DNA from: Caldilineaceae bacterium | Lineage (GTDB): Bacteria; Chloroflexota; Anaerolineae; Caldilineales; Caldilineaceae | Assembly: GCA_026645575.1 (NCBI GenBank) | Contig: JAPKMW010000062.1 | Coordinates: 4,807-68,806 of the forward strand | Direction: 5' to 3' | DNA length: 64,000 nucleotides | Part shown: positions 15,879 through 16,697 of the stretch, piece by piece | Position numbering within the stretch: position 1 is the first letter of the stretch | How the letters are laid out: every line of letters begins with the position of its first letter | Translations under genes and position numbers: made by a program | The notes under the pieces: model-generated | Database searches by the model: none | Told to the model about the DNA's origin: nothing | What the model saw: the letters and a program-made list of their open reading frames with translations, nothing else

Positions 15879-16697
15879 ATGCAAGTTTTTGTTAAAACCT
15901 CAACTGGAAAAACCACCATGATCGAGGTAGAGCTTACCGATACCATTGAGCAAATGAAAGGAAAAATAGTAGATAAGGAGGGAATTCAGCATGACCGGCA
16001 ATGGATTAGGTTCGCTGGAAAACTGCTTGAAGATAACCGAACTTTGGCAGATTACAATATCCAAAAGGAATCCACGGTAAACTTGGCGATTCGTTCAGGT
16101 AATAGCCACTCAGATTTGGAAGCATTTCAGTTCCACAGCTTGCCATCCGACAACTGCCGGGTAGGGGCCAGACATACGCAGGAATCCTATGCTACTTTTG
16201 GCCCCTACCCGGCAGTTTCTGCAAGTTCGTCGGGTGTAGATTGGAACGTAGAGAATGGGACAAGCCCCAAGAACCTCGCCCCAACGCTCTCTTTTGAGCC
16301 AAGGGTTGACACTGCTACGAAACCGCTTTCGATTTTGATCGTTGATGACGATCTGCAGCTTCGTTTTCTCTTACATAAAATGCTTACTTACGAAGGATAC
16401 AGAGTCTACGAAGCCAGCGATGGTGCAGAAGGATTGACTCAATATCATACGATGCAACCAGATTTGCTTGTGCTTGATATTAATATGCCTCGTGTTGATG
16501 GTCTGACTGTTTTGCGCCAAATCCGTATGGCGAACGCAGTTGTTGGGGTTATCCTGATGAGCGCGCGCAAGCAGGAAGCAGTTGCCGGCGCGGCGCGGGT
16601 AGGCTGCGCCGATGGCTATGTCTCCAAGCCCTTTCGCCTCTCCACCATGAGCCAAGAGATCCAGCGGGTAGGCGCCCTCGTGCGCAATCGTCGCTAA
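15879..16697 (+). CDS. Ubiquitin domain fused to a CheY-like receiver domain
   Basis: 272 residues. Residues 1-72 align without gaps to eukaryotic ubiquitin; by my own count 48 of 72 positions are identical, including all seven lysines (6, 11, 27, 29, 33, 48, 63) and the stretch DYNIQKEST. The Ile44 face is changed (L8 to S, I44 to R, V70 to A) and the C-terminal LRGG is absent, being replaced by SGNSHSDL, so it cannot be processed or conjugated in the usual way. Residues about 73-147 are a linker containing a 19-bp DNA inverted repeat. Residues 148-270 are a response-regulator receiver: acidic triad D156-158, phospho-acceptor D200 (LVLDINMP), S228 and K250 (VSKPF). There is no output domain. 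AAGGGA lies eight bases before the ATG. GC is about 42% over 15901-16080, far below neighbours. No E1, E2, JAB protease or kinase gene is near. Confidence 0.92.
   Translation: MQVFVKTSTGKTTMIEVELTDTIEQMKGKIVDKEGIQHDRQWIRFAGKLLEDNRTLADYNIQKESTVNLAIRSGNSHSDLEAFQFHSLPSDNCRVGARHTQESYATFGPYPAVSASSSGVDWNVENGTSPKNLAPTLSFEPRVDTATKPLSILIVDDDLQLRFLLHKMLTYEGYRVYEASDGAEGLTQYHTMQPDLLVLDINMPRVDGLTVLRQIRMANAVVGVILMSARKQEAVAGAARVGCADGYVSKPFRLSTMSQEIQRVGALVRNRR
16152..16217. repeat. 19-bp perfect inverted repeat inside the ubiquitin-receiver linker
   Basis: Arms at 16152-16170 and 16199-16217 are exact complements (GCCGGGTAGGGGCC core) around a 28-base loop. It is translated in frame as residues 92-113, exactly between the two folded domains. 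GC content of the arms is much higher than the surrounding gene. Confidence 0.9.

Follow-up and report, generated by a model that had tools for sequence, protein, structure and literature searches.

A predicted ubiquitin fold lacking its conjugation tail is joined to a CheY-like receiver in one open reading frame of a Caldilineaceae bacterium

A protein of a Caldilineaceae bacterium joins a ubiquitin domain to a response regulator receiver domain. Its gene lies in a stretch of 64,000 nucleotides that was analysed as a whole (hereafter the window), and Pfam places both domains in the single open frame of ORF 15879-16697, with the ubiquitin domain in front. The ubiquitin part is predicted, from alignment and structural model, to retain its fold, and its sequence is without both the conjugation tail and the common binding face. 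We give an even chance to the reading that the product works in the cytosol as a single-domain response regulator and carries its ubiquitin as a tethered, conjugation-dead module that serves docking or folding. The gene and its parts are as follows:

15879-16697, forward strand: ubiquitin-receiver gene, a single ORF of 272 aa with an ATG start
15879-16094, forward strand: ubiquitin domain, residues 1-72 (Pfam, alignment with human ubiquitin, AlphaFold, Foldseek)
16095-16322, forward strand: linker, residues 73-148, predicted by AlphaFold to be disordered at residues 75-129
16323-16694, forward strand: CheY-like receiver, residues 149-272 (Pfam, AlphaFold, Foldseek)

An earlier note on this DNA had proposed the fusion and had called for a profile search of its ubiquitin part, an AlphaFold model of the full protein and a search for the same architecture elsewhere. 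The fusion is real: PF00240 and PF00072 match in one frame, and AlphaFold2 (alignment of 55 sequences) predicts two confident folds, a ubiquitin (pLDDT about 95) and a receiver (about 97), joined by a low-confidence linker with pLDDT under 50 at residues 75-129. The profile search matched PF00240 to residues 3-72 at 1.8e-22 and PF00072 (Response_reg) to residues 152-261 at 6.2e-27, each far over the curated cut-off. Compared with the PDB by Foldseek, the full model gave ubiquitin 5ifr_B at the first rank and the receiver 2a9o, a YycF homologue, at the second. Judged by alignment and model, chance resemblance is untenable for both domains, because an ungapped match spans the whole ubiquitin domain and two folds are predicted with confidence. 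The model of the whole protein had a mean pLDDT of 81.0 and a pTM of 0.52; this low pTM, together with the low confidence of the linker, suggests that the two domains adopt no fixed arrangement.

The region around the gene contains the following elements:

15564-15623, no strand: inverted repeat 5' of the gene, with 24-nt arms (88%)
15788-15815, forward strand: promoter-like TTGACA-16-TACATT, with TG preceding the second hexamer (weak evidence)
15861-15866, forward strand: two in-frame stop codons immediately 5' of the start, read from the sequence
15865-15870, forward strand: Shine-Dalgarno-like AAGGGA, read from the sequence (weak evidence)
17030-17155, no strand: inverted repeat 3' of the gene, with 39-nt arms (95%)

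The in-frame stops rule out an upstream extension, and therefore the frame of the gene hides no N-terminal signal peptide. Promoter-like sites are weak markers here, with three found against a shuffle mean of 1.9.

The ubiquitin part is close to the human protein over its whole length. Pfam, AlphaFold and Foldseek all return a beta-grasp ubiquitin fold, and our alignment reproduced the count of the earlier note, 48 of 72 residues identical to human ubiquitin (67%) with no gaps. All seven human lysines are kept (K6, K11, K27, K29, K33, K48, K63). At positions 3, 13, 15, 26, 43 and 67, which we take to be the ubiquitin core, substitutions are mostly conservative (I3V, L15I, V26M, L43I, L67V), the exception being I13T. 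Two sites that matter for the function of ubiquitin are altered:

16008-16010, forward strand: codon 44, Arg replacing Ile44, the centre of the binding patch (alignment)
16095-16106, forward strand: residues 73-76, SGNS where human ubiquitin has LRGG (alignment)

Residues 71-76 read IRSGNS against the human LRLRGG, after which the linker and receiver continue, so that a C-terminal GG, whether free or exposed by cleavage, is absent from the protein at this site; the tail had been described as uncleavable before, and this holds. Most ubiquitin-binding domains bind a hydrophobic patch made of L8, I44, H68 and V70. In the window protein these positions are S8, R44, N68 and A70 (L8S, I44R, H68N, V70A), and the I44 hydrophobic patch is missing. 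Genome contigs were scanned for relatives of the ubiquitin part; the best 80 of the 176 obtained have 72 I, six V, one T and one K at position 44, and none of them combines non-hydrophobic residues at positions 8, 44 and 70. A protein search, with 120 of 825 matches listed, yielded 364 ubiquitin copies from 119 proteins; among these, the counts at position 44 include 309 I, 20 V, 11 L and two R. The two copies with R44 belong to P0038 and P0085, therefore R44 by itself is not unique, and a single copy of the 364, in P0068, has non-hydrophobic residues at all three of positions 8, 44 and 70.

The loss of the tail and of the I44 patch speaks against conjugation, and also against the suggestion of the earlier note that the protein could be a decoy occupying eukaryotic ubiquitin-binding proteins. 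Such a eukaryote-facing effector would draw on the 67% identity to human ubiquitin and on the secreted ubiquitin BfUbb, which bound human E1 in vitro (PMC3352274). Yet a protein with S8, R44, N68 and A70, no GG tail, no signal peptide and a fused receiver fits that role so poorly that we consider it barely credible. With the conjugation tail and the usual binding patch missing, the ubiquitin part likely stays in place as the docking element of a signalling protein and is not removed like a tag.

Meanwhile, the second half of the protein displays the full set of residues expected of a response regulator, namely the acidic pair, the Asp, the Ser/Thr and the Lys:

16344-16349, forward strand: acidic pocket, D156 and D157 (sequence and alignment)
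16476-16478, forward strand: D200, predicted phospho-acceptor (sequence, alignment and model)
16560-16562, forward strand: S228, the switch Ser/Thr position (sequence and alignment)
16617-16628, forward strand: Y247, the switch aromatic, to K250 (sequence and alignment)

These roles are assigned by analogy with CheY. D200, S228 and K250 had been named before and are confirmed, and D156/D157 and Y247 complete the signature. In the AlphaFold model, D200 and S228 stand at the ends of receiver strands and K250 right after a strand. No domain follows the receiver, and the ubiquitin domain before it is the only partner domain detected by Pfam. As Pfam shows no further candidate for an output domain, this could be taken to mean that ubiquitin is the regulated output, with phosphorylation of D200 exposing or hiding a ubiquitin surface. 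The disordered linker and the pTM of 0.52 in the AlphaFold model oppose the fixed arrangement of domains involved, and we regard such an output as very unlikely.

Among the matches listed, the proteins nearest to the linker-receiver part are stand-alone regulators, P0121 (167 aa, 73/124 residues or 59% identical to the receiver) and P0173 (140 aa, 56% identical), both single receivers without ubiquitin. The linker-receiver search gave a complete list of 53 matches, in which PF00240 occurs only in the window protein itself; a further receiver search, with 120 of 1502 matches listed, used length limits that exclude full fusions. The search for the two-domain architecture likewise returned no second protein with ubiquitin and receiver together among the 120 of 825 matches listed. 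As neither search contained another ubiquitin-receiver protein, no orthologous fusion was found; a distant, independent fusion is possible among the 705 further matches. Titles and the beginnings of abstracts in the literature gave no such fusion either, and the available parts of PMC7159879 and PMC8195603 treat receivers and ubiquitin-like systems separately. Based on the sequence searches, the protein is best read as a one-off fusion. Both halves belong to known families, with the combination, the missing leader and the loss of the patch being the distinctive traits among the matches listed.

Ubiquitin in bacteria is rare yet scattered. Nearly all record titles of the best 80 of the 176 loci are bacterial (L054 is from the archaeon Methanothrix); all 80 match PF00240, with 52-69 of 72 residues identical to human ubiquitin. 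A signal-like leader, scored by a rough test as a hydrophobic 12-mer 5' of ubiquitin, precedes 75 of these 80. Their partner domains, counted from the 25 of 56 Pfam families listed, include dockerin (13), autotransporter (10), S-layer homology (4), secretion sorting (4) and IPTL-CTERM (2). The receiver model matched none of the 80, and none of 34 ubiquitin ORFs (some of them duplicates) of L081-L111. In the phyla of four loci, ubiquitin was present in 9/288, 2/398, 5/398 and 6/395 genomes, centre genomes included, with 9, 2, 4 and 6 of those genomes, in the same order, over the family cut-off. Leader-bearing ubiquitins are thus scattered in bacteria, so the oddity of the window protein is its cytosolic receiver partner and not bacterial ubiquitin per se.

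Several observations on these loci stand on their own. A leader with a near-eukaryotic ubiquitin occurs across Bacillota, Pseudomonadota, Verrucomicrobiota, Bacteroidota and others (e.g., L011:9920-11827, L031:9848-11161, L063:9929-10639), and the spread over L001-L080 exceeds the few bacteria covered in the available part of PMC5705921. Leader-bearing genes stand in tandem pairs at L081, L090 and L108, where L108 has two short open frames of 102 and 106 aa, near the size of BfUbb plus leader. Three near-identical frames of 151 residues on IMG/VR contigs (L085-L087) combine a leader, ubiquitin and an IPTL-CTERM-looking tail. P0097, a partial Myxococcota MAG protein, contains several divergent tandem ubiquitin-like copies. 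In a Verrucomicrobiaceae MAG (L005:3188-3580), a ubiquitin with LRLRGG is followed by a cytochrome c-like CAQCH, and this is possibly eukaryotic contamination; the same may hold for some other contigs of the 80 loci that are short or come from MAGs, such as L079.

The source of the ubiquitin part was addressed with a tree of 101 rows, made of 78 distinct sequences from the 80 loci, 22 eukaryotic sequences and the window protein. This tree is without resolution, and the window row, which has a long branch (0.55) and an odd composition, falls in no well-supported set. The highest identity to the window ubiquitin is 51/72, reached by one of the copies in a polyubiquitin protein from JGI; among bacterial loci, L005 has 49/72 and the next ones 48. 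On these alignments, the identities favour neither a bacterial nor a eukaryotic source.

The linker provides insights into how the two domains may have come together. It contains a perfect inverted repeat:

16152-16170 and 16199-16217, no strand: arms of a 19-bp perfect inverted repeat within the linker (inverted-repeat search)

The window has 11 perfect hairpins with arms of at least 15 and loops of up to 60, a cut-off set post hoc with the list already seen; 10 of them are intergenic and the linker hairpin is the exception, in a window of which the gene list covers 83%. With arms of at least 12 there are 16, comprising 12 intergenic, three within genes (the linker hairpin included) and one that overlaps a gene edge. 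Because the other ten hairpins of the same grade lie between genes, the linker looks like a former intergenic spacer, and this suggests a fusion through such a spacer. Dispersed copies of the linker hairpin were also sought. Its core GGGTAGGGGC has 10 window matches at one mismatch, of which two are the hairpin arms themselves and another lies in the receiver; shuffles gave a mean of 4.06 and reached 10 in 1/100, and we claim no repeat family from these matches. As a separate observation, related intergenic hairpins at 24246-24287, 42944-42987, 24824-24875 and 59995-60053 carry CCGCTCCTAGCC... and ...CCAGTCCGTGACTGGC and look like dispersed palindromic repeats.

Other traces along the gene concern the same event. 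An out-of-frame TAA TAG at 16100-16105, seen post hoc, stands right after codon 74, where a free ubiquitin would end. Codons 27-167 contain no in-frame ATG or GTG, and TTG occurs at codons 56, 69, 80, 88 and 153. Codon scores are -0.29 for the ubiquitin part, -0.30 for the linker and +0.18 for the receiver, against +0.39 and +0.38 for two control stretches of resident genes. The low scores of the first two parts are weakly consistent with newer coding sequence; for ubiquitin, its own frame hardly differs from the antisense frame (-0.293 vs -0.329). Within the receiver, the G+C content jumps near 16530, from 0.42 on the 5' side to 0.65 on the 3' side. This break inside the receiver counts against a simple two-piece fusion story.

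An open frame of 234 nt (78 codons) occurs in 654 of 12094 overlapping intergenic frames of the window (5.4%), therefore an accidental fusion is possible though not common. The same figure bears on whether the two halves are different DNA joined at the hairpin by the assembly. The hairpin sits between them, the G+C content shifts along the gene, and the protein search has only one member of this kind, carried by a single contig of 68,806 bases. However, the linker frame is open throughout, as just 5.4% of such frames are, the sharpest G+C break is within the receiver and not at the hairpin, and a 19-bp arm is short for an assembly mis-join; a chimera is hence an improbable account.

Alternatively, ubiquitin could be a passive passenger instead of a docking part. 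The genes would then have fused recently and by accident; the receiver alone would be functional, and ubiquitin would be tolerated, acting at most as a cap that aids solubility or folding. This reading, which we find possible if somewhat doubtful, draws on the lone occurrence of the fusion among the matches listed, on the intergenic look of a linker whose frame may be open by accident, on ubiquitin codons atypical for the window and on the long tree branch. Nevertheless, the ubiquitin part is full length, without a stop, with its lysines and mostly conservative core changes, so its fold still looks maintained, and the promoter-like and Shine-Dalgarno-like sites, both weak, precede ubiquitin.

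The neighbouring genes are ordinary bacterial ones, such as gyrase A, FtsK, an FtsH-type peptidase M41 and ribosomal protein L9. Pfam detected no histidine kinase, second receiver, E1, E2 or deubiquitinase in any of the 43 genes of the window list, and an Rfam search gave no match. The gene at 31248-33254 matches a 7TM sensor region only, with no recognisable kinase, and the gene at 58593-59966 has a RecG-like HATPase_c_4 next to a Schlafen AlbA_2 domain. Elsewhere in the window (538-2455, reverse strand), an RloB-like gene adjoins an AAA_21 ATPase gene, a pairing that is reminiscent of defence loci.

We propose how a response regulator with a tethered ubiquitin might have arisen and work. Two separate genes, for ubiquitin and for a receiver, would have merged via an intergenic, hairpin-bearing spacer, which would now form a flexible linker of ~75 residues. 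A sensor kinase encoded elsewhere in the genome would phosphorylate D200, upon which the receiver face (S228, Y247) may change so that a partner is bound or released. The ubiquitin fold could keep the protein near a second partner by a surface distinct from the I44 patch, or else merely assist folding. Docking of a phospho-switch through ubiquitin, as the earlier note had it, survives as an inference. A bolder version, in which a ubiquitin devoid of tail and I44 patch is a phosphorelay effector whose access for docking is set by receiver phosphorylation, with no conjugation involved, is speculative and rather unlikely.

In textbooks, ubiquitin marks the regulation of eukaryotes and two-component signalling that of bacteria; here one protein joins both. 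A near-eukaryotic ubiquitin can apparently persist as a fold after both the tail for conjugation and the common binding face have been lost, and domain fusion via an intergenic hairpin spacer is a suggested route. Ubiquitin as a leader-bearing module of scattered bacteria is directly testable in cultured species.

Several known systems resemble the window protein in part. The Bil/Bub operons of bacteria encode ubiquitin-like conjugation systems and so also have a ubiquitin-like protein; they differ in that the window protein is without a conjugation tail and that Pfam recognised none of the 43 genes of the window list as an E1, E2 or deubiquitinase. Eukaryotic ubiquitin is made as fusions to the ribosomal proteins L40 and S27a that are cut after GG. 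These too place an N-terminal ubiquitin on an unrelated protein, and L40 fusions were met in this analysis, whereas the window protein, having no GG, would escape such cleavage. Single-domain response regulators of the CheY, Spo0F and DivK type share with it the phosphorylation residues and the lack of a DNA-binding or enzyme domain; where P0121 and P0173 have only short N-terminal tails, the window protein has ubiquitin. BfUbb of Bacteroides fragilis is secreted and inhibits other B. fragilis strains (PMC3352274; PMC5705921). It is likewise a near-eukaryotic ubiquitin from a bacterium and differs from human ubiquitin in its final four residues, but it has a signal peptide and a mature form of 76 residues, while the window protein lacks a signal peptide and carries a fused receiver. 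Finally, in leader-bearing bacterial ubiquitins, another part usually follows ubiquitin, a layout that the window protein shares; they have a signal-like leader in 75 and a receiver in none of the best 80 of 176 loci, and the window protein has a receiver and no leader.
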